A stretch of DNA of 36,934 nt from an uncultured Lachnospiraceae bacterium (lineage in GTDB: Bacteria > Bacillota > Clostridia > Lachnospirales > Lachnospiraceae). A program made the translations under genes and the position numbers. The notes beneath the pieces are model-generated. The model did not search any database, was not told where the DNA came from, and saw nothing but the letters and a program-made list of their open reading frames with translations. Where the stretch lies: assembly GCA_949740745.1 (NCBI GenBank), contig CATJIW010000219.1, positions 1-36,934 on the forward strand. The letters run 5' to 3'. Below are positions 1,484 through 31,761 of the stretch, one piece after another; position 1 is the first letter of the stretch, and every line of letters starts with the position of its first letter.

Positions 1484-2383
1484 ATGACAATGATGCTGCA
1501 GATTTTGGTATACGGACTTCAGCTTGGGAGTACCTATGCGCTTCTTGCCCTGGGGTATTCCATGGTATACGGGATTGTCGGGATGATCAATTTTGCTCAT
1601 GGCGATCTTCTGATGGTCGGCGCATACGTGGCATTCTTTATTTTTGCGGCTTTTGAGACGCCGCCGGCCAGTATGCTGATCATTATAGGCGTGATTCTGC
1701 TGACGATGGCGGTCGTGGGTGCGCTTGGGGCCTTGATCGAGAAGGTAGCTTATAAGCCGCTCAGAAATAAAGCGCGCCTGAGCGCACTTATCACTGCCAT
1801 TGGCGTTTCCATGTTTATCGAGAATTTTCCCAGGGCGCTGCCGTTTATCGGCCCGAATGCGAGAAGCTTTCCGGCGATTATTCCCGTTAAGGTGCTTAGG
1901 ATGGGGGCGGTCAATGTGACTACCATCCAGCTGATTACCATAGGGGCGGCGGTGGCGCTTATGCTGGTGCTGTATCTTTTTGTCAATAAAACCGTTTATG
2001 GGAAACAGATGCGGGCTGTTCAGCAGAATAAAGATGCGTCTGCCCTTATGGGAATCAATGTAAACGGAATTATTTCCCTGACATTTTTCCTTGGGGCGGC
2101 CCTGGCGGCCGTCAGCGGGATCCTCTATGCCAGTACTTATCCGACGATTACGCTGACCATGGGCTCTACGCTTGGAATGAAGGCGTTTATCTGTGCGGTG
2201 CTGGGAGGGATCGGCGATATCCGCGGCGCCATGCTGGGAGGCTTTGTCCTGGGAATCGCAGAAATGTATGCAAATTATATCAATGCGGATTTTAGCTACG
2301 GTATTTCTTTTATCATTCTGATTTTGGTGCTTATTTTGCGGCCTCAGGGACTGGTGGGAAAAGAAACCGTAGAGAAAGTATGA
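1484..2383 (+). CDS. livH: Branched-chain amino acid ABC transporter permease, LivH family
   Basis: 299 aa hydrophobic protein; LGYSMVYGIVGMINFAHGDLLMVGAY signature; follows SBP. Confidence 0.93.
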   Translation: MTMMLQILVYGLQLGSTYALLALGYSMVYGIVGMINFAHGDLLMVGAYVAFFIFAAFETPPASMLIIIGVILLTMAVVGALGALIEKVAYKPLRNKARLSALITAIGVSMFIENFPRALPFIGPNARSFPAIIPVKVLRMGAVNVTTIQLITIGAAVALMLVLYLFVNKTVYGKQMRAVQQNKDASALMGINVNGIISLTFFLGAALAAVSGILYASTYPTITLTMGSTLGMKAFICAVLGGIGDIRGAMLGGFVLGIAEMYANYINADFSYGISFIILILVLILRPQGLVGKETVEKV

Positions 2384-2393
2384 GGTATGAAGT

Positions 2394-3395
2394 ATGAAGA
2401 AAAAGGCAAGGAAAGGGAATGCTGCTGCGCTTGCTGCGGCTGCTGCATTTTATCTGCTCATTTCCCTGTTCAACCGGATGGGGCTTGTTACTTCCTATTA
2501 TCTACAGCTGATCATGGTGTCCTGCATCAATGTCTGCATGACGGTCAGCCTGAACCTGGTCAACGGCTTTACAGGACAATTTTCCGTAGGCCATGCAGGA
2601 TTCATGGCGATCGGCTCTTATGTATCCGGCTGTATTACCACGCAGGTGATCCCCTCCGGAAGCATTCCGGGAGCACTTCAGATTCCGGTATTTTTACTGG
2701 CACTTCTGGCAGGCGGCATGGCTTCCGGTCTGGCAGGGGCGCTGATTGGGCTTCCTACGTTACGGCTCCGCGGGGATTATCTGGCCATTGTCACTCTGGG
2801 CTTCGGAGAGGTGATCCGAGCCGTTATCCGGCTGATCCCTGCGGTGGGAGGGGCGAGAGGAATGTCAGGAATCCCAAAGTATTCCAGCTTTTTTCTGGTG
2901 TTTGTGATTACGGCGCTGATCGTGCTCCTGTGCCGGAATATGGTGAATTCTGCTTCTGGAAGGGCCTGTGTTTCTATTCGTGAAAATGAAATTGCGGCGA
3001 GCTGTCTTGGCGTCAATACATTTAAATATAAAATGATGGTATTTATTGTGGCAGCGATAATGGCCGGCGTGGCGGGAGGGCTGTATTCCCATGCACTGTG
3101 CTATACTCAGCCGGATCTTTATTCCTTTCAGAAATCCTGTGATTACCTGGTGTTTTTGTATGCGGGCGGTACCGCCAGTCTGACCGGCTCCGTACTCAGC
3201 GCATTTCTCCTGACTTTTTTGCCGGAGGTTCTGCGTTTTCTGTCGGATTGGAGAATGGCTATCTATGCTCTTTTGCTTATCGTGATTATGCTGCGGCTTC
3301 CTAACGGCCTCTTTGGAGGAAAGGAGATTTCTTTCATGCGGCGCAGGAATTATGTCCTTAAGGAAGAAACGGCAGAGCGTGGACAGGCAAATTAA
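2394..3395 (+). CDS. livM: Branched-chain amino acid ABC transporter permease, LivM family
   Basis: 333 aa; NLVNGFTGQFSVGHAGFMAIGSY and LRGDYLAIVTLGFGEVIR signatures. Confidence 0.93.
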   Translation: MKKKARKGNAAALAAAAAFYLLISLFNRMGLVTSYYLQLIMVSCINVCMTVSLNLVNGFTGQFSVGHAGFMAIGSYVSGCITTQVIPSGSIPGALQIPVFLLALLAGGMASGLAGALIGLPTLRLRGDYLAIVTLGFGEVIRAVIRLIPAVGGARGMSGIPKYSSFFLVFVITALIVLLCRNMVNSASGRACVSIRENEIAASCLGVNTFKYKMMVFIVAAIMAGVAGGLYSHALCYTQPDLYSFQKSCDYLVFLYAGGTASLTGSVLSAFLLTFLPEVLRFLSDWRMAIYALLLIVIMLRLPNGLFGGKEISFMRRRNYVLKEETAERGQAN

Positions 3396-3415
3396 AAAGA
3401 AAGGAGGAGGAGGAT

Positions 3416-4201
3416 TTGGCAATTCTTGAAATTGATAATATAACGATGCAGTTTGGCGGACTGGTAGCTGTGAAGGATTTTTCTCTGAGACTGGGTGATG
3501 AAGAGATTGTTGCCATTATTGGTCCTAACGGCGCCGGAAAAACGACGGTGTTCAATATGATCACGGGCATTTATCAGCCGACGAAAGGGATGATTATCCT
3601 GGATGGGATGGATATGCGGGGGAAAAAGCCGAATCAGTTTTCCATGCAGGGGATTTCCCGAACGTTCCAGAATATCCGGCTTTTTGGGAATGTGTCTGTG
3701 ATCGACAACCTGATGATTGCGCAGACCGGCAGTGTAAAATACGGGCTGGCGGCGGGGCTTTTGCGCACGCCTAAATTTATGCAGGAGGAACAGCGGCTGG
3801 CTGAGAAGGCGTATGAGACGCTGAAGATTTTTCGCCTGGAAGATAAAAAGGATATTCTTGCACAAAATCTTCCTTACGGGGATCAGAGAAGGCTGGAGAT
3901 TGCCCGTGCGCTGATTACGGATCCAAAGGTGCTTTTGCTGGATGAGCCCTGTGCCGGAATGGTGCAGAGCGAAATGGACGACCTGAAGGAAATGATTATG
4001 TTTGTACGGGACCATTTCCATATTGCGGTCATTTTGATTGAGCATCACATGAGCTTTGTGATGTCTGTTGCGGACAGAATCAAGGTGCTTGATTTTGGCG
4101 AAACGATTGCGGAGGGGGCGGCCCCGCAGATACAGACGGATCCAAAGGTAATTGAAGCTTATCTGGGAGGTGACTATCATGCCGATGCTGAAAGTGAATG
4201 A
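3416..4201 (+). CDS. livG: ABC transporter ATP-binding protein, LivG family
   Basis: Walker A GPNGAGKT; IEHHMSFVMSVADRIKVLDFGETIAEG. Apparent TTG start preceded by AGGAGGAGGA. Confidence 0.93.
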   Translation: MAILEIDNITMQFGGLVAVKDFSLRLGDEEIVAIIGPNGAGKTTVFNMITGIYQPTKGMIILDGMDMRGKKPNQFSMQGISRTFQNIRLFGNVSVIDNLMIAQTGSVKYGLAAGLLRTPKFMQEEQRLAEKAYETLKIFRLEDKKDILAQNLPYGDQRRLEIARALITDPKVLLLDEPCAGMVQSEMDDLKEMIMFVRDHFHIAVILIEHHMSFVMSVADRIKVLDFGETIAEGAAPQIQTDPKVIEAYLGGDYHADAESE

Positions 4202-4892
4202 GTTGCAGGTGGCCTATGGGATGATTGAGGCGGTCAGGGGGATCAGCTTTGAGGTGAATGAAGGGGAGATCGTGACACTGATCGGTTCTAACGGTGCCGG
4301 AAAGACAACGACTCTCCGGGCAATTTCCCATCTTGAAAAGGCGAAGGGCGGAACGATTGAATTTATGGGGGAAAACATTTCGGACCGGCCGGCTTATGAG
4401 ATCGTGAAACGGGGAATTGCCCATGTGCCGGAGGGGCGGCAGGTGTTTCCAGGGCTGAATGTTGAAGATAATCTGTTTATGGGAGCGCTGACCAGACGGA
4501 GCGGCCAGAAAGGCGTTTCAGAAGACCTGGCGAGGATTTATGAGATATTTCCCAGGCTCAGGGAACGCAGAAAGCAGCCGGCAGGAACTCTGTCCGGCGG
4601 CGAGCAGCAGATGCTTGCGGTGGGAAGGGCCATGATGACGAAAGGGAAGCTGATGCTTTTGGACGAGCCATCCATGGGACTGGCCCCAATGATCGTAGAC
4701 GAGATTTTTGAGACGATCCAGTTGATTCGCAAGGAGGGCACGACGGTGCTTTTGGTAGAGCAGAACGCCTTTAAATCCTTAAAGATTGCGGATCATGCCT
4801 ATATTCTGGAGAACGGGCAGATCACCATGAAGGGGAGCGGAAAGGAACTGATTGCGGATCCGAAGGTGAAAGCAGCTTATCTGGGCGTATAA
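4179..4892 (+). CDS. livF: ABC transporter ATP-binding protein, LivF family
   Basis: Walker A GSNGAGKT, LSGGEQQMLAVGRAMM, LLDEPSMGLAP; likely start ATG 4179 inside the end of livG. Confidence 0.93.
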   Translation: MPMLKVNELQVAYGMIEAVRGISFEVNEGEIVTLIGSNGAGKTTTLRAISHLEKAKGGTIEFMGENISDRPAYEIVKRGIAHVPEGRQVFPGLNVEDNLFMGALTRRSGQKGVSEDLARIYEIFPRLRERRKQPAGTLSGGEQQMLAVGRAMMTKGKLMLLDEPSMGLAPMIVDEIFETIQLIRKEGTTVLLVEQNAFKSLKIADHAYILENGQITMKGSGKELIADPKVKAAYLGV

Positions 4893-6259: not shown

Positions 6260-7171
6260 ATGGAAGTCAACAAAAATCTGAAAAAGGGCTATGGCATTAC
6301 GCCTGCGGCGAGGACCATCTGGAATGCAGACGAGACCTACAATAAGAAGGGGATGGAAGCGTACCTGACCTGGCTGCTGGATAATGGGGCCCAGTCCCTG
6401 TCGATCGTAGGATCCACCGGCGAGAACATGGCTATGAATGAGGAAACGCAGAAGGAGGTGCTTGGGCATGTGGCCAGCTTTATTGACGGCCAGGTCCCGC
6501 TGATCGGAGGAACGGGAAAATACGATACCTGCACGACTCTGGAACTGAGCAGGTTTGCGGAGAATGCCGGATACGATGCGCTGCTGGTGCTGCTTCCTTT
6601 TTATTACACTCCCCATAAGACGGCGGTGCTGCAGCACTACCGGAATCTGAGAAAAGAACTGAGCGTGCAGATGTATATTTATAACAATCCCTGGTTTGCG
6701 GGATACGAGCTGAATACCCCTGAGGTTCAGGAACTGATCGAGGACGGTACCATTCAGGGAATTAAGGCGGCGCATGGCGATCCCAACCGGGTTCACGATC
6801 TTAAGTATTACATGGGAGACAAAATTACGGTATTTTACGGACATGATTACTGCGGCCTGGAAGCTTACTGCGCAGGTGCAGACGGCTGGCTGTCAGGGCT
6901 TCCCGCAATCCTCCCGAAACAGTGCCGGGCCATTCAGGATGCTGTGGAGGCGAAGGATCTGGAAGCTGCCAGGAAAGCTCAGAACAACATTATTCCGTTC
7001 CTGAATTATTTCCTGTATGACAAGAAAAACGGTGTCCCTCACTGGCTGGAGATCTGCAACTATACTTTGACGGCCCAGGGTCTGAACGTGGGACTTCCCA
7101 GACGGCCTGCGGGAGATCTGGACGAGGCCAACAAAAAGAAAATTGAGAAACTGCTGGCAGATATGGATTAA
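6260..7171 (+). CDS. DapA-family aldolase/lyase (dihydrodipicolinate synthase / N-acetylneuraminate lyase superfamily)
   Basis: 303 aa; GSTGENMAM, YIYNNP, GIKAAHGD (Schiff-base Lys region). Confidence 0.88.
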   Translation: MEVNKNLKKGYGITPAARTIWNADETYNKKGMEAYLTWLLDNGAQSLSIVGSTGENMAMNEETQKEVLGHVASFIDGQVPLIGGTGKYDTCTTLELSRFAENAGYDALLVLLPFYYTPHKTAVLQHYRNLRKELSVQMYIYNNPWFAGYELNTPEVQELIEDGTIQGIKAAHGDPNRVHDLKYYMGDKITVFYGHDYCGLEAYCAGADGWLSGLPAILPKQCRAIQDAVEAKDLEAARKAQNNIIPFLNYFLYDKKNGVPHWLEICNYTLTAQGLNVGLPRRPAGDLDEANKKKIEKLLADMD

Positions 7172-7240: not shown

Positions 7241-7336
7241 AGAGAAAGCAGGGGGACTCTTTCCCGAAAGGCTTCTGCGGTTCTGGGCCTGCCGGAACGC
7301 CTGGCGTAGCAGGCTTTGGACGGACATATTGTCAGA
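7241..7336 (+). repeat. Partial copy of the intergenic palindromic repeat family (right half)
   Basis: AGAGAAAGCAGGGGGACTCTTTCCCGAAAGGCTTCTGCGGTTCTGGGCCTGCCGGAACGCCTGGCGTAGCAGGCTTTGGACGGACATATTGTCAGA aligns closely with about 29753-29844. Confidence 0.8.
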
Positions 7337-8776: not shown

Positions 8777-9472
8777 ATGAAAGAGATACAGCGGATATCG
8801 ATTACGGACGCAGTTGTGGAAAGCATGAAGGAATTAATTGAATCGGGAGAGTATGAGGCAGGGCAGAAGCTTCCTACGGAAGCGAAGCTTTGCGAGATGC
8901 TTAAAGTAAGCCGCACCAGTGTGAGAGAAGCCTTTCGGGTACTTCAGGCCTTGGGATATGTGGTTATCAAAGCCGGCAAGGGAGCCTTTGTGGCGGAAAA
9001 AAAGCCGGAGCAGAGGGAAAAGGATCCCTGGTATGAAGCGGATAACGTCCAATTTTCGGATTTCATGGAGGTTCGCTGTGCAGTAGAGCCCCTGGGGGTC
9101 CGTCTGGCCGTGGAGAGGGCGTCGGAAAAGCAGATTGCGGAGCTTTCTGAAATCCATGCTTCCTTTGTGGAAGCAAATACGGGACACGATATGGCGAAGC
9201 TGATTATGCTGGACGAGCTGTTTCATACGAAAATCATGTCCTGTACCAAAAATCCTCTGCTGATCAATATTAACAAACAGCTTCTGGACAGCTTCCGGGT
9301 ATACCGGGGGGAATCGTTCATGAATACGGAAGTATATGGAAATGCCGTGATCCCCCATGAACGGATTTTGGAATGCTTTAAAAACCATGATGCAGAGCAG
9401 GCGGTGCTGGAAATGCAGCGCCATCTGGAGATTACCGGTGAGGATATGCGGCATTTACATAAAATGAAGTGA
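8777..9472 (+). CDS. GntR-family transcriptional regulator, FadR/FCD subfamily
   Basis: 231 aa; LPTEAKLCEMLKVSRTSVREAFRVLQALGYV winged-helix; C-terminal FCD-like region. Confidence 0.92.
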   Translation: MKEIQRISITDAVVESMKELIESGEYEAGQKLPTEAKLCEMLKVSRTSVREAFRVLQALGYVVIKAGKGAFVAEKKPEQREKDPWYEADNVQFSDFMEVRCAVEPLGVRLAVERASEKQIAELSEIHASFVEANTGHDMAKLIMLDELFHTKIMSCTKNPLLININKQLLDSFRVYRGESFMNTEVYGNAVIPHERILECFKNHDAEQAVLEMQRHLEITGEDMRHLHKMK

Positions 9473-9547: not shown

Positions 9548-10468
9548 TTACAGCTTGCCCTGCTTTTTCAGAATGCCGAGAGTGACTTCCATTTCCGCAT
9601 CGGTGGCAGGGGCAAGGGGAGACCTTGCCGGCCCAAGCTTTACGCCCGTAACGGCTTCGATTGCGGGACGCAGGATCGAGTTGGGAAGGATTCTTCCATT
9701 TTGGCCGGTGCTCTTGCAGAATTCATACATGGGTACGAAAAGCTCCTTTGCCTTTTCATTTTCACCCTTTGCAAAGGCATCGAACATGGCGCGGATCTCA
9801 TGACCATAGATGTGAGCGCCGCCGCTGACAATGCCCATGGCGCCCTGTACGATGGTGGGAAGCAGCATCACGTCATCGCCGTTATAGAGGGCGAAATCCG
9901 GATCCACATCCTTTGTCGCCAGATAGAAATCGGTGATCTGGGTGGGATTCACGCCGGCTTCGTCTTTTACGCCCACAATATTTTTAATGGCCGCCAGCTT
10001 TCCGACAGTCTCTGCTTCCATATTGATGCCGACAAAGATCGGGATGTTGTACAGCAGGATGTCAGCCTTTGTACTTTCGGCAACGGCCTTGAAATGGCTG
10101 TATACGCCTTCCTGGGTAGGCTTGTTATAGAAGGGGCATACGATCAGGCAGAGCTCGATGCCGCATTCTTCTGCTTTTTTCGTCAGAGCGATGGTTTCCT
10201 TTGTGGAAGCGCAGCCGGTCCCGGCGATTACGGGCTTCCTTCCGGCAGCGGCCCTGACGGCAGTTTCAAATAATCTGGCTCTCTCGTCAAAGGAAAGCAG
10301 GGAAGCTTCGCCGGTGGTTCCCGTTACGATCAGAGAATCGCAGACATCTTTCTCAATGACATAATTGATCAGTTCTTCATATTTGTCGTAATCGACATTT
10401 TCATTCTCGTCATAGGGTGTGATCAGAGGAAGCAGAATTCTTCCGTATTTTTTTACAACAGGATTCAT
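9548..10468 (-). CDS. DapA-family aldolase/lyase (dihydrodipicolinate synthase-like)
   Basis: VTGTTGEASLL, LLYNIP, GVKDEAG. The listed ORF starts at a TTG; ATG at 10468 (MNPVVKKYGR) has GAGAAAGGA upstream and is preferred. Confidence 0.9.
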   Translation of the reverse strand: MNPVVKKYGRILLPLITPYDENENVDYDKYEELINYVIEKDVCDSLIVTGTTGEASLLSFDERARLFETAVRAAAGRKPVIAGTGCASTKETIALTKKAEECGIELCLIVCPFYNKPTQEGVYSHFKAVAESTKADILLYNIPIFVGINMEAETVGKLAAIKNIVGVKDEAGVNPTQITDFYLATKDVDPDFALYNGDDVMLLPTIVQGAMGIVSGGAHIYGHEIRAMFDAFAKGENEKAKELFVPMYEFCKSTGQNGRILPNSILRPAIEAVTGVKLGPARSPLAPATDAEMEVTLGILKKQGKL

Positions 10469-10489
10469 GGTTATTGGTTCCTTTCTCAA

Positions 10490-10583
10490 ATAGATTTTCT
10501 GGTCCTGTTTCCGCAGCGAAAAGGGCTTTTCCCGGAAATAGTGCCAGAATATTCAATGGATTTTTGGGTTTCGCAAACGCCTG
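10490..10583 (-). repeat. Degenerate copy of the intergenic palindromic repeat, in the leader of the minus-strand dapA-like gene
   Basis: Reverse complement CAGGCGTTTGCGAAACCCAAAAATCCATTGAATATTCTGGCACTATTTCCGGGAAAAGCC matches the left arms at 29663 and 30789. Confidence 0.8.
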
Positions 10584-10614
10584 ACAGATTATATATGATT
10601 GTGTGCCCTCGATA

Positions 10615-10633
10615 ATTGTATGATGTCGTATAT
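10615..10633. promoter_or_regulatory. Predicted GntR-type operator, copy 1
   Basis: ATTGTATGATGTCGTATAT; lies at/just after the predicted minus-strand -10 (10637-10642) of the dapA-like gene. Confidence 0.7.
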
Positions 10634-10636
10634 CGT

Positions 10637-10665
10637 ATGATAAATGCTTTTTATGGATTTGTCAA
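10637..10665 (-). promoter_or_regulatory. Predicted promoter of minus-strand dapA-like gene
   Basis: Minus strand TTGACA (10665-10660), 17-nt spacer, TATCAT (10642-10637). Confidence 0.75.
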
Positions 10666-10737: not shown

Positions 10738-10756
10738 ATTGTATGATGACATAACA
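10738..10756. promoter_or_regulatory. Predicted GntR-type operator, copy 2
   Basis: ATTGTATGATGACATAACA immediately after the -10 box. Confidence 0.7.
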
Positions 10757-10820: not shown

Positions 10821-11555
10821 ATGAGAGAAATTCAAAAGATATCCATTACAAATATGGTTGCGGAGAATATTCGGGAACTGATCGAGACAGAACAGTATAT
10901 TCCGGGGCAGAAGCTGCCGACGGAAGCAGGATTTTGCCAGATGTGGGGAGTCAGCCGTACCAGCGTCCGGGAGGCGCTGCGGATTCTCCAGGCATTAGGA
11001 TGGGTGGACATCAGACCGGGAAAAGGGTCGTTTGTCCCGGACCGGCCTTTTCCGCCAAAATCGCAGAAAAACTGGTATGATTCAGAGAATGCACAGTTTT
11101 CGGATTTCATGGAGGTGCGCTTTGCCATTGAGCCGCTGGCGGTCCGTCTGTCCGTGAAACGTGCTGAGCCGAAGGAGGTTGCGGAGCTTTTCGAGATTCA
11201 CCAGTCTTTTATTCGCGCAAATGAAGCTCACGACCTGACAAAAATGATTATGCTGGATGAGCTCTTCCATACGAAGATTATGTCTTATAGTAAAAATCCT
11301 TTGTTAATCAATATCAATAAGCAGCTGCTGAACAGCTTTCGTATTTATCGGGGGGAGTCTTTCACCGACAGCTGCGTATATCATAACGCAGTGCAGCCTC
11401 ACGAACAGATCCTGCAATGCTTTTATGTAAAGGATGCGGAAAAAGCGGTGCTGGAAATGCAGCGCCACCTGGAGATTACGGAGGCCGATATGAGGCAGAT
11501 TCACGGAAATCAGGGGGAGAAGAAAAAATTTTCGGGAATAGTTGACAAAATCTGA
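10821..11555 (+). CDS. GntR-family transcriptional regulator, FadR/FCD subfamily (paralog of 8777-9472)
   Basis: 244 aa; near-colinear with the first GntR (KLPTEAGFCQMWGVSRTSVREALRILQALGW; QFSDFMEVRFAIEPLAVRLSVKRA; NPLLININKQLLNSFRIYRGESF). Confidence 0.92.
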   Translation: MREIQKISITNMVAENIRELIETEQYIPGQKLPTEAGFCQMWGVSRTSVREALRILQALGWVDIRPGKGSFVPDRPFPPKSQKNWYDSENAQFSDFMEVRFAIEPLAVRLSVKRAEPKEVAELFEIHQSFIRANEAHDLTKMIMLDELFHTKIMSYSKNPLLININKQLLNSFRIYRGESFTDSCVYHNAVQPHEQILQCFYVKDAEKAVLEMQRHLEITEADMRQIHGNQGEKKKFSGIVDKI

Positions 11556-11579: not shown

Positions 11580-11599
11580 ATTGTATGATGTCATATAAT
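11580..11599. promoter_or_regulatory. Predicted GntR-type operator, copy 3
   Basis: ATTGTATGATGTCATATAAT, near-palindrome ATTGTATGA-TG-TCATAYAAT, around the predicted transcription start. Confidence 0.72.
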
Positions 11600-11626: not shown

Positions 11627-12502
11627 ATGTACAGCAAGAAGTTGGAAGGAATCATTCCGCCTATTGTTACACCCTTTGATGAACATGGAAATATTGCCGG
11701 AAAATTGATGGAGAAGGAGATGAAGCTGGCAATAGATTCCGGAGTACATGGCCTGAGTGTCAGTGGAAGTACCGGAGAAGGGCCGACGCTGCGGGATGAG
11801 GAATTAAAAGAGCTCATTTCCATTGCAAAGGATTTTGTAAAGGAGGATCAGCCAATTGTATGCGGGATCATGAGGACCTGCACGAGGGATGCGGTAAAAG
11901 CCGGACTGGCGGCAAAGGAAGCCGGTGCGGATGCCCTGATGGTTACCCCCACCGCTTACAATGTTCTGGTGCCGGATGAAGACGGTATGTTTGATTTTTA
12001 CAATACGATCTCCAAAGAGTGTCAGATGCCCGTCATTATCTACAATGTGATTCCTCAGAACACGGTTACCCCCGGTTTATTCAAACGGCTGGTGGAGGGA
12101 ACGGAGTTTGTACGGGGAATCAAGCAGAGCGTAGGAGGCGTTCCTGCCCTGTATGCCATGAAGATGATGTGCGGGGACAAGGCCCAAATTTTTGCGGCCA
12201 CGGACGACATGCTCTATACCTGCTATGATCTGGGGGCTGACGGGGCGATTTCTGCGATCCTTTCGGTTTTTCCGAAACTGTGTGTGGAAATGTGGGAATG
12301 TTCCCAAAATGGGCAGAAGGAACGTGCCCTGGAAATCCAGAACCGGCTGTATTACCGCTGGCAGTGCATTGCGGGAAACCAGTTCCCGATCCGCTTAAAG
12401 TATGCGCTGAAGGTCATGGGCAGGGATGCCGGCTTCTGCCGCAGTCCGATCACTCATTTGTCGGAAGAGGAGAAACGTCAGATCGAAAAAGCCTTTGCCT
12501 GA
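11627..12502 (+). CDS. DapA-family aldolase/lyase
   Basis: 291 aa; IVTPFDEHGN, SGSTGEGPTL, IIYNVIP, GIKQSVGG. Confidence 0.9.
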   Translation: MYSKKLEGIIPPIVTPFDEHGNIAGKLMEKEMKLAIDSGVHGLSVSGSTGEGPTLRDEELKELISIAKDFVKEDQPIVCGIMRTCTRDAVKAGLAAKEAGADALMVTPTAYNVLVPDEDGMFDFYNTISKECQMPVIIYNVIPQNTVTPGLFKRLVEGTEFVRGIKQSVGGVPALYAMKMMCGDKAQIFAATDDMLYTCYDLGADGAISAILSVFPKLCVEMWECSQNGQKERALEIQNRLYYRWQCIAGNQFPIRLKYALKVMGRDAGFCRSPITHLSEEEKRQIEKAFA

Positions 12503-13847: not shown

Positions 13848-13877
13848 AAAAACCAGTATAATTTAGGAGTGAAATTC

Positions 13878-14780
13878 ATGGGCCATGTGTTACAGCTTTT
13901 CATTTACGGTCTGCAGCTTGGAAGCTTATACGCCTTGCTGGCAATGGGATACACACTGGTCTTCGGCATCATCAAGATGATTAATCTGGCACATGCGGAT
14001 CTGATGATGCTGGGAGCCTTTGCAGCGTATTTTTTATTCCAGTGGTTTGGCGGAAGCGGAAATTCTGCAGCGCTTGTTGTCCTGATCATGATCGGCACGA
14101 TGTTATTCGGTGCGCTGGTGGGTTTTTTGATCGAACGGTTTGCTTATAAACCGCTGCGGGGGAGAACGACGGTAGCCTCCCTGGTAGCGGCCATCGGCGT
14201 ACAGCTTTTTATCGAAAATCTGATGCGCTGCATTCCCGGAGTCGGGGCATTGCCGAAAAATTTTCCGACGCTGCTTCCGAAAACCAATATTTCCGTAGGC
14301 GGTTATCAGATTTCATCTACGCAGATTATCGTAATCGCCATTGCCGCGGTGCTGCTTATTTTTATGCAGTGGCTTTGTTATCACACGAGCCTGGGGAAAC
14401 AGATGCAGGCGGTGTCCGTGGACAAGGACGCGTCTTCCCTGATGGGAATCAATGTAAACAGGGTGATCTCCATTACGTTTTCCATAGGAGCGGCACTGGC
14501 GGCCGTCTGCGGCATTTTATATGGAAGCCTGTATCCTACCATTTATGTATATATGGCCGGGAGTATAGGGAACAAGGCCTTTATATCTGCGGTTATCGGA
14601 GGAATAGGCAATATTAAAGGGGCCATGCTGGGCGGATTGATCATCGGTATTATGGAAGTGTTCCTGCAGTCTTTTGCGGCAGATATTTCTTACGGACTTT
14701 GTTTTGCGATCCTGATCCTGGTCCTTCTTTACAAACCGACCGGACTGCTGGGCGGTAAGGCTGTCAGGGAAAAAGTATAG
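13878..14780 (+). CDS. livH: Branched-chain amino acid ABC transporter permease, LivH family
   Basis: LGSLYALLAMGYTLVFGIIKMINLAHADLMMLGA; likely start ATG 13878 after TTAGGAG. Confidence 0.93.
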   Translation: MGHVLQLFIYGLQLGSLYALLAMGYTLVFGIIKMINLAHADLMMLGAFAAYFLFQWFGGSGNSAALVVLIMIGTMLFGALVGFLIERFAYKPLRGRTTVASLVAAIGVQLFIENLMRCIPGVGALPKNFPTLLPKTNISVGGYQISSTQIIVIAIAAVLLIFMQWLCYHTSLGKQMQAVSVDKDASSLMGINVNRVISITFSIGAALAAVCGILYGSLYPTIYVYMAGSIGNKAFISAVIGGIGNIKGAMLGGLIIGIMEVFLQSFAADISYGLCFAILILVLLYKPTGLLGGKAVREKV

Positions 14781-14790
14781 GAGGGACAGG

Positions 14791-15822
14791 ATGAAAACAG
14801 TACGAAAAATATGCAGGCCGGAGTATTTGGCGTTTTTACTGATCTATCTTACTTTGACGCTGCTCCACCGGATGGGAGTGATTAATTCCTATTTATTTCA
14901 GGTGATTACTATTGCCGGCATTAATGTTATTATGACCATCAGCTTAAATATGGTCATCGGCGTCACGGGGCAGTTTTCCATGGGACATGCGGGATTTATG
15001 TCCATCGGAGCTTACATCAGCGCAATGATTTCGCGTCTGGCCTTCCAGTCCTTTGAGCGGACGGCCCTGACCGGAAATTTTGTCCTTTTGGCCGCAATCC
15101 TGTGCGGCGGGATCGCGGCGGCTGTTTTTGGCTTTATTATTGCGATGCCTACCTTAAAGGTCAAGGGTGATTATCTGGCGATCGTGACCCTGGGATTTGG
15201 AGAGATTATCCGCGCCGTATGGCGTGTGGTGGATTATACGGGGGGAGCCCTTGGATTTAACGGAATTCCGAAGCTGACAAACTTTACCTGGGTGTTTGCG
15301 GTGATCCTGATCGTTGTATACGCAAGCAGGAATTTTATCCGGTCGTCCTTTGGCCGAAGCTGTCTTGCCGTCAGGGACAATGACATTGCGGCGGAGGCAA
15401 TGGGAGTAAACTGCAGGAATTATAAGGTTTTGGCATTTGTATTTGCGGCATTTTTCGCAGGGGCGGCCGGCGGCCTTTATGCGCATCTGATCCAGTTTAT
15501 TCAGCCGGATAATTTTGCGGCGGCGAAATCAACAGATTATATTGTCTATCTGTATGCCGGCGGCGTAGGGACGATCAGCGGGTCGATCCTGGGAGCGGTA
15601 GCGCTTACGATCCTGCCGGAGCTTCTGCGTTTCCTGGCAGACTGGCGTCTGGTCATCTATGCATTGCTGCTTCTGTATATCATCATTTGGAAGCCTTACG
15701 GATTATTCGGTGGAAGAGAGTTTAGATTCTTAGGACTGGAAACCATTGCCGCCACAGAATCCAGATTTGGAAAGTGGCTGCGGCAAAGAGTCAAAGGGTC
15801 CGGGAAGAAGGTGGAATCATGA
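14791..15822 (+). CDS. livM: Branched-chain amino acid ABC transporter permease, LivM family
   Basis: MVIGVTGQFSMGHAGFMSIGAY, VKGDYLAIVTLGFGEIIR. Confidence 0.93.
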   Translation: MKTVRKICRPEYLAFLLIYLTLTLLHRMGVINSYLFQVITIAGINVIMTISLNMVIGVTGQFSMGHAGFMSIGAYISAMISRLAFQSFERTALTGNFVLLAAILCGGIAAAVFGFIIAMPTLKVKGDYLAIVTLGFGEIIRAVWRVVDYTGGALGFNGIPKLTNFTWVFAVILIVVYASRNFIRSSFGRSCLAVRDNDIAAEAMGVNCRNYKVLAFVFAAFFAGAAGGLYAHLIQFIQPDNFAAAKSTDYIVYLYAGGVGTISGSILGAVALTILPELLRFLADWRLVIYALLLLYIIIWKPYGLFGGREFRFLGLETIAATESRFGKWLRQRVKGSGKKVES

Positions 15823-16598
15823 GTACGCTGTCAGCAAAACATCTGGGGATTCGTTTTGGCGGGCTGCAGGCAGTCAGGGATTTTAATCTTACCATGGGGA
15901 CGGGAGAGCTGGTTGCCATTATCGGCCCCAACGGCGCAGGAAAAACGACTACGTTTAACATGCTTACGGGGATGTATGTCCCTACGGAGGGAGAACTGGA
16001 ACTGGACGGAGAGTCCATGATCGGAAAAGCGCCTTACAGGATCAACGATATGGGACTGTCCAGGACCTTCCAGAATATCCGCCTGTTCAGCAGTCTGAGC
16101 GTTATGGAAAATATCCGGATCGCCATGAAACGGGAAGCGGATTATTCTCTGTTTGATGCCATGTTCCGGACGAAAAAATACCGGCTGGCGGAGAAAAAGA
16201 TCGACGAGGAGGCAAAGGAGCTGCTCCGGCTGTTTGAGATGGAAGACGCAGCGCATCTGCAGGCGAAGAATCTGCCTTATGGCGAGCAGAGACGGCTGGA
16301 GATCATACGAGCCCTGGCGGGCAGGCCGAAGATCCTTCTTCTGGACGAACCGGCAGCCGGCATGAACCCTACGGAGATTGAGAATGTGATGGAGATCATT
16401 GCAAAAGTACGGAAGATGTATGACATTTCCATTCTTCTGATTGAGCATCACATGAGCATGGTTATGAAGATTGCAGACCGGATCCTTGTCCTTGATTTCG
16501 GAGAAACCATTGCGGAGGGCACGGCGGAAGAAATACAGGGTGATCCGAAGGTGATTGAAGCGTATCTGGGAAAAGGAGGGGATGAAGAGGATGAGTGA
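15819..16598 (+). CDS. livG: ABC transporter ATP-binding protein, LivG family
   Basis: GPNGAGKTT, LLIEHHMSMVMKIADRILVLDFGETIAEG; start ATG 15819 overlaps livM stop (ATGA). Confidence 0.93.
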   Translation: MSTLSAKHLGIRFGGLQAVRDFNLTMGTGELVAIIGPNGAGKTTTFNMLTGMYVPTEGELELDGESMIGKAPYRINDMGLSRTFQNIRLFSSLSVMENIRIAMKREADYSLFDAMFRTKKYRLAEKKIDEEAKELLRLFEMEDAAHLQAKNLPYGEQRRLEIIRALAGRPKILLLDEPAAGMNPTEIENVMEIIAKVRKMYDISILLIEHHMSMVMKIADRILVLDFGETIAEGTAEEIQGDPKVIEAYLGKGGDEEDE

Positions 16599-17301
16599 TC
16601 TGTCAGTGAAAAATCTCCATGTTTCGTATGGTACGGTCAATGCCGTCAGGGGGGTCAGCTTTGAAGTACATGAGGGAGAGATCGTCTCTCTGATCGGAGC
16701 GAACGGAGCGGGAAAAACTACGCTTCTGCGGGCGATTTCTGGTTTGGAGAAGGCAAAAAACGGTTCGATCGCATTTGACGGCACGGATTTGGTCAAACTG
16801 CCGGCCCATAAAATCGTGGAACAGGGAATCGTGCACATTCCGGAGGGGCGGCGGATTTTTCCGAATTTGAGCGTATATGATAATTTGATGATGGGAGCGC
16901 ATCTGCGCAAAGATCCCAAAGGGATCCGGGAAGACCTGGAGGACTGCTTTGAGATCTTTCCCCGTTTGAAGGAGCGGTCTTCTCAGCCTGGAGGAACGCT
17001 TTCCGGCGGGGAGCAGCAGATGCTTGCCATTGCCCGCGGGATTATGACCCATGGGAATACCATGCTGCTGGACGAGCCGTCCATGGGGCTGGCGCCGATC
17101 GTGGTGGATGAGATTTTCGAGGTCATTAAACGGATCAATAAAAAGGGAACGACGGTTCTTCTGGTGGAACAAAACGCCAACATCGCCCTGAAAAATGCGG
17201 ACAGGGCTTATGTTCTGGAGACGGGAACCATTGTCAAGGAGGGAAATGCGAAGGACCTGCTCCATGACCCGGCAATCCGGGCGGCTTATCTGGGCTGTTA
17301 A
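16591..17301 (+). CDS. livF: ABC transporter ATP-binding protein, LivF family
   Basis: GANGAGKTT, LSGGEQQMLAIARGIM, LLDEPSMGLAP; start ATG 16591 overlaps livG end. Confidence 0.93.
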   Translation: MSDLSVKNLHVSYGTVNAVRGVSFEVHEGEIVSLIGANGAGKTTLLRAISGLEKAKNGSIAFDGTDLVKLPAHKIVEQGIVHIPEGRRIFPNLSVYDNLMMGAHLRKDPKGIREDLEDCFEIFPRLKERSSQPGGTLSGGEQQMLAIARGIMTHGNTMLLDEPSMGLAPIVVDEIFEVIKRINKKGTTVLLVEQNANIALKNADRAYVLETGTIVKEGNAKDLLHDPAIRAAYLGC

Positions 17302-26340: not shown

Positions 26341-27201
26341 ATGTTAGCATTATTGCCACAGGTGCTTCTTGAGGGGATATTTACGGGTATGATCATTGCA
26401 CTCATCGCCATGAGCGTATCTCTCACATGGGGCGTCATGTACATTATCAATTTTGCCCAGGGTGAGATTTTGATGATGGGAATGTTCTTTTCCTACTATT
26501 TCACCCTGGCTACGGGCCTGGACCCGCTCATCTGCCTGCCGGTCTGCGCAGTGGTCATGTACTGTTTCGGCGTACTGATCTATAAACTGCTGATCCGGCG
26601 GGTCATGAAGTCCAGTACTTTAAGCCAGCTTCTGGTAACCTATGCGCTCAGTATCGTGCTGGTAAATGTTGCGCAGATCGCATTCGGGCCGGCTTACAAG
26701 ACGGTGGATACGCAGGCGTTTAAAGGCGCCATCCAGGTGGGGAGCCTGCTGATCGCATGGTCCAGGCTGGTGCCGCTTCTTATCTGCATTTTCACGGCAG
26801 CAGTGCTCTATATTGTGATCAATAAGACTAACATCGGACGTTCCATTAAGGCGACCGCCTTAAACAGAGACGCGGCCTCCCTGGTCGGCGTCAATGCGGA
26901 GCGGGCCTACACCACTTGCATGGGACTTGCGACAGCGGCTTCCGGCATCGGCGGAGTGGCGCTTACCTATTACTTCTCCATCTACCCAAGCGTGGGCTCC
27001 GTGTTTATGAATTTCGGATTTACGGCCTGCTGTATCGGCGGGATGGGAAGCATTCCGGGCGCAGTGATCGGAGGGATCCTGATGGGGTTAATTGACAGCA
27101 TCGTAGGAACGTTTTTCAACGTGTCGCTTAAATATGTGGCGGTGTTCGCACTGTTTATCCTTGTGGTTTACAAACGTCCCAAAGGGCTGTTTGGATGGTG
27201 A
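26341..27201 (+). CDS. livH: Branched-chain amino acid ABC transporter permease, LivH family
   Basis: VSLTWGVMYIINFAQGEILMMGMF; follows SBP. Confidence 0.92.
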   Translation: MLALLPQVLLEGIFTGMIIALIAMSVSLTWGVMYIINFAQGEILMMGMFFSYYFTLATGLDPLICLPVCAVVMYCFGVLIYKLLIRRVMKSSTLSQLLVTYALSIVLVNVAQIAFGPAYKTVDTQAFKGAIQVGSLLIAWSRLVPLLICIFTAAVLYIVINKTNIGRSIKATALNRDAASLVGVNAERAYTTCMGLATAASGIGGVALTYYFSIYPSVGSVFMNFGFTACCIGGMGSIPGAVIGGILMGLIDSIVGTFFNVSLKYVAVFALFILVVYKRPKGLFGW

Positions 27202-27207
27202 TGAGAG

Positions 27208-28236
27208 ATGAATAAATTTATGAAAAAAATGAAGGGAAGCCTGAAAGCGAGCAGGGTGTCGCCGGCTGCTCTGGCTGTCTGCCTGGCAGTGATCCTGGCA
27301 TACCCTTATGTGTTTTCCTCGCCGTTTCAGAGAAATCTGGGAATCCTGATTTTAATGTGGGGATGCCTTGGCAGTGCGTGGAACATTTTCGGGGGATATA
27401 CTGGGCAGGTCTGCCTGGGAACGGCCATGTTTTTCGGAATGGGGGCTTACGGCGTGGTGCTTCCGTATTATTATTGGAACATCACTCCCTGGCTCGGCAT
27501 CCTGATCGGCATGATCCTGGCGGTGCTCCTGGCGCTTTTAGTGGCTGTCCCGATCTTTAAGCTGAGCGCCCAGTATTTTTCCATTGCAACCATGGCCCTC
27601 GGAGAGACGGTTCGGATCATCATGGTGAACCTGCCGTTTACCAGGGGAATGCAGGGAATCGACTTCCTGAATATGAAGGACAGCTTCTGGTATACCCTGC
27701 AGTCGAGCAGCAAGATCCCGTATTATTATATGTTTGCGGTTTTAACGGCGGGCGTGTTCGTGCTGATGTGCTGGATCAACACGTCCAAACTGGGCTATTA
27801 CTTCCGTACCATCAAGGCGAATCCGGTTTCTGCGGAGAGCATCGGCATCAATGTGAGGAAATATAAAACTTGTGCGCTGATCCTCTGTGCAGTAATTGCC
27901 TCGCTGTGCGGCTCGGTCTATGTGGTCTATCAGGCATATGTAGATCCGGCCACCGTACTCCTTGGCGCACTCTCCACCAGGATGATTATCATGGCGGTTA
28001 TCGGGGGGATCGGCACCGTGTACGGCCCTATGGCCGGGGCGCTGATCCTGGTGCCCCTCGGCGAGTATATCCGGGCGGCCAACAGCGGTTCCCTGCCGGG
28101 GATTGATCTGGTGATTTACGGCGTACTGATTATACTTGTAATTATGTTTCAGCCGGACGGAGTCGTGGCCATGATAAAAAAGGCGGTGGAACGGATCAGA
28201 AAGAAAGTCTGGAAACAGGGGAAGGAGGCCGCCTGA
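27208..28236 (+). CDS. livM: Branched-chain amino acid ABC transporter permease, LivM family
   Basis: NIFGGYTGQVCLGTAMFFGMGAYG; LSAQYFSIATMALGETVRIIM. Confidence 0.92.
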   Translation: MNKFMKKMKGSLKASRVSPAALAVCLAVILAYPYVFSSPFQRNLGILILMWGCLGSAWNIFGGYTGQVCLGTAMFFGMGAYGVVLPYYYWNITPWLGILIGMILAVLLALLVAVPIFKLSAQYFSIATMALGETVRIIMVNLPFTRGMQGIDFLNMKDSFWYTLQSSSKIPYYYMFAVLTAGVFVLMCWINTSKLGYYFRTIKANPVSAESIGINVRKYKTCALILCAVIASLCGSVYVVYQAYVDPATVLLGALSTRMIIMAVIGGIGTVYGPMAGALILVPLGEYIRAANSGSLPGIDLVIYGVLIILVIMFQPDGVVAMIKKAVERIRKKVWKQGKEAA

Positions 28237-28946
28237 TGGGGATTCTTGAGGTGAAAAACGTGACAAAGAAGTTCGGAGGGCTGGTGGCCAACAGCGACGT
28301 GACCTTTTCTGTGGAGCAGGGACAGGTTTACGGAATCGTCGGGCCAAACGGCGCCGGGAAGACGACCATGTTTAACATGATCAGCGGCGCCTTCCATCCC
28401 ACGTCGGGACAGATCCTGTTTAAAGGCGAGGACATTACAAAGAAGCCGGCTTATGAGATCTGTAAGCGTCACATCGGCAGGACCTTCCAGATTCCGCTGG
28501 CCCTGGATAAGATGACGGTGTTGGAAAACGTGACTGTGGGCGCCATGGTGCATACGCCGAAGACAGAGGCGGCAAAGGAATTTGCCGCCGAGATCCTGGC
28601 CTATGTGGGCATGGAGAAGCAGCAGGATTTGATGGCGGAGTCTTTGAGCGTGATCCAGAAAAAAAGGCTGGAGATCGCAAGGGCTTTAAGCACGAAACCG
28701 GAGATGATCCTTCTTGACGAGTCCATGGCAGGCTTAAACGGCCAGGAACGGGATGATGCGATCGCACTGATCAAAAAGATCAACCACGATGGGATCACGG
28801 TCCTGATGATCGAACACGTCATGCGGGTGGTCATGAGTGTCTGTGACCAGGTGCTGGTGCTGCAGAACGGGATGAGGATTGCGGAAGGGACACCGGAAGA
28901 GATTACACAGGACGAAAAAGTCATAGCGGCGTATTTGGGGGATTGA
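28236..28946 (+). CDS. livG: ABC transporter ATP-binding protein, LivG family
   Basis: GPNGAGKTT; LMIEHVMRVVMSVCDQVLVLQNG; TGATG overlap with livM. Confidence 0.93.
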   Translation: MGILEVKNVTKKFGGLVANSDVTFSVEQGQVYGIVGPNGAGKTTMFNMISGAFHPTSGQILFKGEDITKKPAYEICKRHIGRTFQIPLALDKMTVLENVTVGAMVHTPKTEAAKEFAAEILAYVGMEKQQDLMAESLSVIQKKRLEIARALSTKPEMILLDESMAGLNGQERDDAIALIKKINHDGITVLMIEHVMRVVMSVCDQVLVLQNGMRIAEGTPEEITQDEKVIAAYLGD

Positions 28947-29656
28947 TCATGTTAAAAGTATCAGATATAGTGACCGGCTACAGCAGTTCCCTGGCCGTGT
29001 TAAACGGGATCAGCTTTGATATGAAAGAAGGGGAAATTGTGGCGATCCTGGGGGCCAACGGAGCGGGAAAGTCGACGACCCTCAGGACGGTAGCGGGACT
29101 TATGAAGCCCTGGAAAGGAAGCGTGAAATTCCTCGGAGAAGACATTTCCGGGGTGCCGGCCCACGAGGTGGTGCGGAAAGGACTTTCTCTGGTGCCGGAG
29201 GGACGGCTGCTGTTCGGAAAGCTTACCGTCCACGAAAACCTTACCATGGGGGCATTTACGAGAAAAGATAAGGCGGAGATCCACGACTCTCTGGATATGG
29301 TTTACTCGCTGTTTCCCAGGGTAAAGGAGCGGATGAACCAGAAGGCCAACACTCTTTCCGGCGGGGAGCAGCAGATGGTGGCCATTGCAAGAGGGCTGAT
29401 GTCGAAACCAAGTCTTCTGATCCTGGACGAGCCCTCCCTGGGACTTGCGCCAAAACTGGTAAAAGAGGTATTTGCCTTTGTAAAAGAAATCAACCAGAAA
29501 GGCATTTCCATTTTGATCGTGGAACAGAATGTGAAGGAGACTTTGCAGCTTTCCGATCGGGCGTTTATCATCCAGGAGGGAAAAACTACGTTTAGCGGAA
29601 AATCGGAGGAACTGATGGACGACGACAACGTGCGTAAGGCGTATTTGGGAATGTGA
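28943..29656 (+). CDS. livF: ABC transporter ATP-binding protein, LivF family
   Basis: GANGAGKST, LSGGEQQMVAIARGLM, ILDEPSLGLAP. Confidence 0.93.
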   Translation: MIMLKVSDIVTGYSSSLAVLNGISFDMKEGEIVAILGANGAGKSTTLRTVAGLMKPWKGSVKFLGEDISGVPAHEVVRKGLSLVPEGRLLFGKLTVHENLTMGAFTRKDKAEIHDSLDMVYSLFPRVKERMNQKANTLSGGEQQMVAIARGLMSKPSLLILDEPSLGLAPKLVKEVFAFVKEINQKGISILIVEQNVKETLQLSDRAFIIQEGKTTFSGKSEELMDDDNVRKAYLGM

Positions 29657-29662
29657 ATACAA

Positions 29663-29877
29663 CAGGCAATTGCGTGACTCAAAAATTCATTGAATATTCT
29701 GGTAATATTTCCGGGAAAACCCCTTTGCGCCGTGGAAGCAAGACTAGAGAAGGCAGGAGGGACCCTTTCCCGAGTGACTTCTGTGGTTCTGGGCTTGCTG
29801 GAACGCCTGGCGCCAGCAGGCTTTGAACGGACATATTGCCAGAATGCTTCCACAATTTCACGTTTCGCAATTGCCTG
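29663..29877 (+). mobile_element. MITE-like palindromic insertion element, full-length copy (about 215 bp) with 10-bp flanking direct repeat
   Basis: Ends CAGGCAATTGCG...CGCAATTGCCTG (perfect 12-bp terminal inverted repeat); flanked by GTGAATACAA at 29653-29662 and 29878-29887; internal sequence shared with 30789-30938 and 7241-7336. Confidence 0.8.
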
Positions 29878-29905
29878 GTGAATACAAGTTTGAAAGGAGA
29901 ATGAA

Positions 29906-30787
29906 ATGAAGATCGGATTTATTGGACTGGGGATTATGGGGACTCCCATGGCAAAGAACCTGCTTGGGGCAGGACATGAGCTGGTGGTATATGACCGGTC
30001 TGCGGAAAAGATGGAAGAGCTTGTGCAGGCGGGGGCAAAGGGAGCCGCTTCTTCGAAGGAAGCAGCGGAGGAATGCCGTCTGGTGATCACCATGGTTCCC
30101 AATTCGCCTCACGTGAAAGCAGCGGTCATGGGAAAAGACGGCGTGCTGGAGGGGGCAAAGGAAGGAGATATCCTTGTCGATATGAGCTCGATCGCGCCTC
30201 TGGCTTCCCAGGAGGTTTATAAGGCCTGCAAAGAGAAGGGGGTCCGCATGATCGATGCGCCGGTGTCCGGCGGGGAACCGAAGGCCATTGACGGAAGCCT
30301 TTCAATTATGGTGGGCGGAGACAGGGAAACTTTTGACGAGGTATATGACATCCTTATGGTCATGGGCGGCAGCGCCGTATACTGCGGGGACAGCGGAGCC
30401 GGAAACATGACCAAGCTGGCGAATCAGATCATTGTGGCCGTGAACATTGCGGCTGTCTCGGAAGCCTTTATGCTGGCATCTAAAGCCGGAGTGGACCCGA
30501 AGAAAGTGTTCGACGCCATCAAGGGAGGTCTGGCGGGCTCCACGGTTATGAATGCGAAGGTTCCCAAAATTCTGGGAAGAGATTTCGCTCCGGGCTTCCG
30601 CATTGACTTACATATCAAGGATCTGAACAATGCCGTTGAGACGGGCCACAGCGTAGGCGCGCCCCTGTTTTTAACCACGCAGGTACAGGAAATGCTGGAA
30701 CGGCTTCATTTTGACGGCTGCGGCTCTGATGACCACAGTGCCATTGCCAAATACTATGAAAAGATTTCCGGGAGCGAGATTAAATAA
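29906..30787 (+). CDS. garR: 2-hydroxy-3-oxopropionate (tartronate semialdehyde) reductase / 3-hydroxyisobutyrate dehydrogenase family
   Basis: 293 aa; GFIGLGIMGTPMAKNL, DAPVSGGEPKAIDGSLSIMVGG, GNMTKLANQIIVAVNIAAVSEA. Confidence 0.88.
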   Translation: MKIGFIGLGIMGTPMAKNLLGAGHELVVYDRSAEKMEELVQAGAKGAASSKEAAEECRLVITMVPNSPHVKAAVMGKDGVLEGAKEGDILVDMSSIAPLASQEVYKACKEKGVRMIDAPVSGGEPKAIDGSLSIMVGGDRETFDEVYDILMVMGGSAVYCGDSGAGNMTKLANQIIVAVNIAAVSEAFMLASKAGVDPKKVFDAIKGGLAGSTVMNAKVPKILGRDFAPGFRIDLHIKDLNNAVETGHSVGAPLFLTTQVQEMLERLHFDGCGSDDHSAIAKYYEKISGSEIK

Positions 30788-30788
30788 A

Positions 30789-30938
30789 TAAGCGTTTGTG
30801 AAACTCAAAAATTCATTTAATATTCTGGTAATATTTCCGGGAAAAGCCCTCTGGGCTTGCTGGAACGCCTGGTGCAGCAGGCGTTGAACGGACATGTTGC
30901 CAGAATATTCCGATAATTTCATGTTTTGCAAATACCTG
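30789..30938 (+). mobile_element. MITE-like palindromic insertion element, shorter copy (about 150 bp) with 9-bp flanking direct repeat
   Basis: Flanked by TTAAATAAA at 30780-30788 and 30939-30947; same arms as 29663-29877 but lacks about 65 bp of the central segment. Confidence 0.78.
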
Positions 30939-30966
30939 TTAAATAAAGACTGAGAAGGTGGATGGA

Positions 30967-31761
30967 ATGTTAAAAAAAGATGAAGTTCTGTATAATAAAG
31001 TGAAGTGGATGTTAAAGGAGGGGAAGCGGACGGTCGGCTCCTGGCTGCAGCTTGGAAGTCCTGTTTCTGCGGAGATTCTGGCAAAAGCCGGTCCGGACTG
31101 GCTGATGGTCGACTGCGAACACGGCCCTTATGACATCCCGACTCTTACGAGCCAGCTGCAGGCCATTGCCAAATATGATGTGGTCCCGTTGGCGAGGGCG
31201 CCCTGGAATGATTTTGTGATGATCAAGCAGATTCTGGACACGGGAGTCATGGGGATCCTGGTGCCTTATGTGAGCACGAAGGAGGAAGCCTGCCGGGCTG
31301 TGAGTGCCTGCAAATATCCCACCCTTGGCATCCGGGGCGTGGCGGGGAGCCCCAGGGGATCCGGCTATGGGATGGATGGAAAACGGTATCTGGAGAAGGC
31401 CGACGATCAAATCCTAGTCATGACCCAGGTGGAAACTCCGGAGGCAGTAAAGAACATTGAGGAGCTGGTGACGGTAGAAGGGCTGGACGGCATCTTTATC
31501 GGGCCCATGGATTTAAGCTGCTCCATGGGACATTTCGCTGATCTCGGCGCGCCTGAAGTACAGGAGGCGATCCGGCATGTGGAGGAAGTCGTTTTTGCCA
31601 GTGATAAGTTCCTGGGGACGGTGGCGGCAGATATGGAAGCGGCGGAAAAGCTCTATGACAGAGGCTACGGCCTGGTGGTGCCCATGTCCGACAGCACGGC
31701 TCTTGGCAGATTGGCGAGAAATACCTTTGACCGGTTCCAGGAACTGTACCCGGAACGGTAG
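30967..31761 (+). CDS. HpcH/HpaI-family aldolase (2-dehydro-3-deoxyglucarate aldolase / 4-hydroxy-2-oxo-acid aldolase type)
   Basis: LGSPVSAEILAKAGPDWLMVDCEHGPYD, QVETPEAVKNIEEL, DGIFIGPMDLSCSMG; start ATG 30967 after GAGAAGGTGG. Confidence 0.9.
   Translation: MLKKDEVLYNKVKWMLKEGKRTVGSWLQLGSPVSAEILAKAGPDWLMVDCEHGPYDIPTLTSQLQAIAKYDVVPLARAPWNDFVMIKQILDTGVMGILVPYVSTKEEACRAVSACKYPTLGIRGVAGSPRGSGYGMDGKRYLEKADDQILVMTQVETPEAVKNIEELVTVEGLDGIFIGPMDLSCSMGHFADLGAPEVQEAIRHVEEVVFASDKFLGTVAADMEAAEKLYDRGYGLVVPMSDSTALGRLARNTFDRFQELYPER

Follow-up and report, generated by a model that had tools for sequence, protein, structure and literature searches.

A decayed mobile repeat upstream of a Lachnospiraceae dapA-like gene very probably belongs to a family that inserts at a fixed distance from Shine-Dalgarno motifs

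The Mutator-like TnGBS, ISLre2 and ISKra4 elements insert in one orientation 15-17 bp upstream of the -35 box of sigmaA promoters, leaving the gene intact, and promoter-targeting Mutator-like elements with symmetrical repeats lose this orientation (PMC3942029). In the IS1202 family/ISAjo2 group, the transposase alone accomplishes site-specific, oriented insertion 5 bp from a host motif (PMC10132070). IS1272, for its part, takes the place of an inverted-repeat target, and no target duplication results (PMC5678879). Against this background, we analysed a stretch of 36,934 nt from an uncultured Lachnospiraceae bacterium (the window), and consider it very probable that the repeat at 10500-10583 is a one-ended, decayed MITE, that the ends of its family are common to a DUF772/DDE insertion sequence of ~1.7 kb, and that this family targets positions at a fixed distance from GGAG(G).

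The relic stands in front of a dapA-like gene, among the following features, given from gene to promoter:

9548-10468, minus strand: DHDPS-family (dapA-like) gene, downstream of the relic (Pfam 4e-73; dapA model score above its cut-off)
10480-10489, minus strand: Shine-Dalgarno (SD) region TTGAGAAAGG upstream of the dapA-like ATG, the presumed insertion target motif, read directly
10490-10499, minus strand: weak candidate for the SD-side copy of a decayed target duplication, GAAAATCTAT, 7/10 identical to 10584-10593 (shuffle p 0.058)
10500-10583, minus strand: MITE relic, with the left terminal repeat CAGGCGTTTGCGAAAC, the left arm and part of the interior to GGACCA(GA)
10584-10593, minus strand: weak candidate for the distal copy of the target duplication, TATAATCTGT, read directly
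10637-10665, minus strand: predicted sigma70-type promoter of the dapA-like gene, TTGACA-17-TATCAT (11/12 match), upstream of the relic

An earlier note on this DNA had seen here a copy of elements lying about 19 kb away, and the likeness is real: 10495-10583 (minus strand) is 82% identical to 29663-29751 (plus strand) over 89 nt, 10515-10580 (minus strand) is 86% identical to 30792-30857 over 66 nt, and the first 20-mer of the relic, GGCGTTTGCGAAACCCAAAA, has 0 expected matches in shuffles. The note also placed the copy correctly, between the promoter at 10637-10665 and the start codon, an ATG at 10468 preceded by GAGAAAGGA. What survives is the left part of a 215-bp element that is complete at 29663-29877; the right half and the right terminal repeat are absent, so that the relic carries just one of the two ends by which a MITE would be recognised. 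The missing terminal repeat, together with a candidate duplication of only 7/10 (p 0.058), counts against our reading of the relic. Its SD-proximal edge lies 24-31 nt from the dapA-like ATG, varying with where the edge is placed, and this is within the range of the family. Other copies in the window are better preserved or represent the opposite side of the element:

7241-7336, plus strand: right-part relic of the MITE, downstream of the DHDPS-family gene at 6260-7171 (87% over 98 nt)
29663-29877, plus strand: full-length 215-bp element, 28 nt upstream of the SD-preceded ATG at 29906, with the perfect 10-bp duplication GTGAATACAA at 29653-29662 and 29878-29887
30789-30938, plus strand: internally deleted 150-bp copy, 28 nt upstream of the ATG at 30967, with the duplication TTAAATAAA at 30780-30788 and 30939-30947

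The element is palindromic and ~215 bp long (variants 57-219 bp), with terminal inverted repeats YAGGYRWTTGCGAAAC; in an alignment of 47 full-length copies these take the form CAGG...CCTG over ~16 nt, the ends reading CAGGCAATTGCGAAACT...GTTTCGCAATTGCCTG with variants. Target-site duplications of 9-13 bp flank many copies (for example AGGACTCTTTTT, AATAAAATGCCAT and CATATTATCATA), and are also found around 63-bp versions that consist of the two arms alone. Counted by pattern search, core matches number ~91 in the window's own genome (G000), 38 in G004 and 41 in G010; a reversed control pattern gives 0. The full element occurs in only these three of the 41 genomes searched, all of the same genus, and is absent from the 38 other relatives; a scan of GTDB genomes, outside which the window's own genome possibly falls, gave just two assemblies with the core, both metagenome-derived and from Lachnospiraceae (CAMSZT01 and JAAWRC01). 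The term "mobile repeat", which the earlier note had used, is borne out by the terminal inverted repeats, the target duplications, the ~90 core copies in the window's own genome and an element that has these ends and carries a transposase gene, and mobility of the family is strongly supported as far as sequence comparison can speak to it.

At orthologous sites, the long form in one species may correspond to a short form in another (65 and 213 bp at L128/L189, 65 and 216 bp at L208/L193, 215 and 107 bp at L149/L219), which argues that some insertions are older than the species and have shrunk by internal deletion. Retention at orthologous genes of two species, with differing lengths, is also seen at L011/L185, L042/L175 and L031/L126, beside L128/L189, L149/L219 and L193/L208. 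Further one-ended relics of G004 (L139, L207 and L210) end near an SD-like GGAGG and resemble that at 10500-10583; loss of the SD-proximal half may be recurrent among relics. A pair of terminal repeats 1.85 kb apart in the same genome (L122) proved to be two unrelated copies around a MutS-like gene, and not a transposon. At G000:C230:3311-3674, three cores of a second subfamily (AGG...CCATGG) follow one another at an exact spacing of 170 bp, possibly as a tandem array.

Considering where these elements sit, one edge is 24-36 nt from a start codon with an SD before it in 59 of the 102 two-ended elements (from loci of three genomes), whereas the same criterion picks out 0-4 elements when the interval is shifted by 20-150 nt, and 2.3% at random positions in these loci. 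Outside the MITE, the target duplication comes first and then the SD hexamer, most often beginning 13-19 nt from the edge; for each of the window's two other nearly complete copies, the next ATG is 28 nt away. Simple rules rather than a gene finder served to assign start codons and SDs, and ~40% of the two-ended elements fail the strict SD-and-start rule; by eye, many show an SD-like motif at the same offset. The MITEs face the gene both ways round (36 with the right side, 24 with the left), as nearly symmetrical ends would lead one to expect. All of these counts describe surviving insertions, in which target choice and selection are not fully separable, and the stable insertions beside SDs could be due in part to selection against other sites.

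A transposase search of the three genomes found one such gene enclosed by MITE-type ends, in L224 of G010, where AGGTAATTGCGAAA and TTTCGCAAACGTCT lie 1.70 kb apart and the 5' end is 33 nt from an SD-preceded ATG. The protein, of 483 aa, matches DUF772 (PF05598, 2e-11) and, below threshold, DDE_Tnp_1 (PF01609). L224 and the MITEs have terminal repeats in common and nothing else, the MITE interior being unrelated to L224; it is by these repeats that we infer the link between the two, and the DUF772/DDE-type transposase probably moves the MITEs. The L224-type element is a single copy in G010, and was found neither in G004 nor in G000 (80% complete, 411 contigs, hence weak evidence of absence). 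Two other candidate partners were rejected: an ISAs1-type transposase had one G010 match only, with ends that do not match, and the IS256 type (PF00872) gave no convincing match.

Insertion sequences of ~1.7 kb with the same ends are present in Lachnospiraceae and other Clostridia. With weak matches counted, 71 of 397 genomes in the family and 42 of 391 in the class contain relatives of the transposase, which Butyrivibrio proteoclasticus and Roseburia also carry on plasmids; IMG/VR and phage records yielded none, and sequence comparison returned no relative of solved structure. The copy on the Roseburia sp. 831b plasmid is annotated as a hypothetical protein and that on B. proteoclasticus pCY360 has no listed feature (in a gene table known to be incomplete); this transposase seems poorly recognised by current annotation.

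We assembled 41 insertion-sequence copies from many genomes, with ends found de novo or by pattern, in a sample drawn by similarity to one protein and unevenly spread. In 34 of these, an SD motif that agrees with AGGAGG in at least 5/6 positions is found beyond the transposase-5' end, at a distance of 10-20 nt (mostly 14-19), and in none of the 41 is there one beyond the 3' end; perfect duplications of at least 9 bp accompany 25 copies. The seven exceptions comprise three tandem copies (L234, L258 and L265), two weaker AAAGGA-type sites (L251 and L262), L277, which adjoins a tRNA-Ser gene whose start is GGAGAG, and L274, whose end call is doubtful. The tandems are head-to-tail, the new copy standing one target duplication from another copy's 3' end. 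In G598, open frames of at least 466 and at least 291 codons are interrupted at GGAGG with the same geometry (L295 and L296). Because of these insertions in coding genes at GGAGG and at the GGAGAG of a tRNA gene, the target looks like the DNA motif itself, and the simplest reading would be that the transposase recognises this motif in DNA, and not translation itself. The family, its ends and duplications, the SD geometry, the ends in common with the insertion sequence and the orientation rule can all be read from the compared sequences.

Could insertion at random, followed by selection, have left the same picture? If elements entered A+T-rich intergenic DNA anywhere and selection purged all but those just upstream of an SD, the little permissible room in short operon spacers would help to explain their placement, and both full copies in the window do lie between a stop codon and the following SD. 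However, the distribution of offsets is narrow, with almost nothing at 39-60 nt despite the room available in longer leaders; the motif stands at one, constant end of the insertion sequences (34 to 0), which purifying selection on host genes would not readily predict; and the coding-gene and tRNA insertions show the same motif geometry. We therefore hold random insertion with selection to be highly improbable, and favour target choice by the element.

Some features inside the insertion sequences are worth recording in their own right. In L224, L229, L236, L259, L262, L265, L266 and L277, a short sequence complementary to the SD of the element's own transposase (e.g. AATAACTCCT with AGGAGTTATT) lies ~60-75 nt inside the transposase-5' end, just upstream of a predicted -10 box, and co-varies with the SD between members; a terminator-like hairpin directly follows the terminal repeat. 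Together, anti-SD sequence and hairpin look like a guard against read-through transcripts. Protection of this kind is known from IS10 and IS50. A guide-RNA-like reading of the CTCCT motif was rejected, since the motif complements the transposase's own SD and fold-back control in read-through transcripts is simpler.

A reading in which duplication has spread the repeats as a structured cis-regulatory RNA, or a leader akin to a riboswitch, kept at a functional distance from the SD, would draw on the folding of the full elements, which is far better than that of shuffles (z -6.3 on the plus strand, -4.5 on the minus strand), and on two-sided changes in 24 of 57 consensus pairs. Yet the strong fold follows from the palindromic build, as palindromic DNA ends pair on both strands without any RNA function, and terminal repeats flanked by target duplications, the occurrence of elements in either orientation to the gene (36 to 24), ends in common with a transposase-coding element and 63-bp versions at orthologous sites all point away from an RNA family. 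Moreover, no Rfam match was obtained in the window, nor for three family members at a lax threshold, and we regard such an RNA as extremely improbable. G-U cells outnumbered A-C cells by 125 to 58 (sign p 0.03 over columns), but this strand preference was discarded, the structure having been derived on that strand.

For the relic itself, the earlier note had proposed a hairpin in the 5' leader, co-opted from the mobile repeat. The pairs that it named can indeed form and are present in the minimum-energy fold; what falls away is any extra stability over shuffles. The 166-nt leader has a z of +0.73 against dinucleotide shuffles, 150 of 200 being at least as stable, and the 94-nt fragment alone (z -1.04) is no more stable than its shuffles. 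The structure prediction that the note had suggested as a check thus goes against it, and so does the suggested comparison of orthologous promoters: the G004 orthologue of the dapA-like gene (75% identical) follows a promoter and leader that resemble those here but contain no element, and the G010 orthologue (82% identical), in a different context, likewise lacks it. The outer TTCTGG/CCAGAA stem is impossible in the sister short copies L055 and L056, and at 10500-10583 the SD-proximal half and one terminal repeat are gone.

Regulation of translation or mRNA stability of the dapA-like gene by a co-opted hairpin would fit the place of the relic, which falls between promoter and SD within the predicted 5' leader; an element is also kept at several orthologous sites of G000, G004 and G010, so that retention at some genes is possible. 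But this position is the default of the family, which normally inserts just upstream of ribosome-binding sites, and is therefore not evidence of co-option; with a shuffle-level fold, sister copies without the outer stem and orthologues without the element, co-option in the leader is unsupported, and we give it a very slim chance. Most likely, the position of the relic reflects the target choice of a transposon and not regulation of the dapA-like gene, at which the relic would then be without function.

The surroundings of this gene hold further features. Palindromes resembling TATGATGTCATA lie at 10619-10630 and 10742-10753, in the intergenic region between the dapA-like gene and a divergent GntR/FCD regulator, and at 11584-11595, before the next gene; one of them closely follows the dapA-like -10 box. 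The window has 20 matches when up to 2 mismatches are allowed, a number reached by 0 of 100 shuffles, and these palindromes are likely operators of the GntR/FCD regulator. Three DHDPS-family paralogues lie close together (6260-7171, 9548-10468 and 11627-12502), with two GntR/FCD regulators (8777-9472 and 10821-11555), and the dapA-like gene may have a role in catabolism and not in lysine synthesis. Gene sets for a branched-chain-amino-acid-type ABC transporter are repeated at 1484-4892, 13869-17301 and 26341-29656, ~12.4 kb apart (direct repeats D2, D6-D11 and D20).

How might target choice by the transposase proceed? We posit that the enzyme grips both ends of the element and contacts GGAG(G) asymmetrically, cutting the target with a stagger of 10-14 nt on the upstream side. 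Insertion would follow ~14-19 nt outside GGAG(G), usually the SD of a gene, and the intervening 10-14 bp would be duplicated, so that the duplicated stretch and an intact SD remain in front of the gene. Insertion sequences, whose ends are unlike, would enter with the transposase-5' end toward the motif, and MITEs, being nearly symmetrical, either way round. With that end facing the motif, the transposase gene would be divergent from the target gene and would not be read by the host promoter. The relic would have entered the dapA-like leader upstream of AAAGGA, leaving promoter, SD and coding region intact, and would subsequently have lost its SD-proximal half.

More broadly, it appears likely that a clade of DDE insertion sequences across Clostridia, together with its MITEs, evolved direct recognition of the Shine-Dalgarno motif, thereby gaining near-harmless, oriented insertion and a site in nearly every gene. 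The tRNA and intragenic insertions speak against a stronger version with a part for the translation-initiation machinery or the RNA in recognition. Should direct recognition hold, a transposase would recognise the very signal that stands before most genes of these bacteria, which would explain the tolerance of ~90 insertions per genome and would place a hairpin-forming insert at one fixed position in many mRNA leaders and operon spacers. Perhaps such an enzyme could also serve as a tool to place DNA directly in front of genes, which would stay intact. Among prokaryotic transposons, direct recognition would make up a new class of target choice, with the promoter-targeting TnGBS as its parallel. 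There is also a caution here: position alone is a poor ground for reading such repeats as regulatory leaders.

Turning to how the family compares with described systems, bacterial MITEs (PMC10969869) are likewise short and palindromic, with terminal inverted repeats, target duplications, many copies, no transposase of their own and the ends of insertion sequences; the fixed distance to Shine-Dalgarno motifs is the feature of the present family, and the text of that review has no mention of Shine-Dalgarno, ribosome or RBS. Nor did we find a description of Shine-Dalgarno targeting by transposons in the open-access literature that we searched. REP/BIME elements, which depend on RAYT, a tyrosine (Y1) transposase, have no target duplications, and the duplications of the present family argue against membership. 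The nearest curated model for the transposase is that of the IS1182 family, which includes IS1272, but the match to NF033551 is partial and its 62.8 bits stand against a cut-off of 270, so that membership was rejected; in contrast to IS1272, the present insertion sequences have duplications of 10-14 bp beside GGAGG (25/41 perfect over at least 9 bp). With IS1202/ISAjo2 they share site-specific, oriented insertion at a fixed distance by a transposase alone, whereas the target there is pdif/dif, the duplications are 5 bp and the transposase is TnsB-like. The likeness to TnGBS/ISLre2 extends to a DDE transposase, a fixed distance, one orientation and an expression signal as target, and elements with symmetrical ends are unoriented there as the MITEs are here. 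The two differ in the signal, which is the -35 box of sigmaA promoters there and GGAG(G)/Shine-Dalgarno at 14-19 nt here, and in the enzyme, which is of the Mutator type there, the L224 protein matching only PF05598 and, weakly, PF01609, and no Mutator family. As we rate it, fixed-distance, oriented targeting of an expression signal is known already; in the present family it is the signal that is new, and the transposase that is different.
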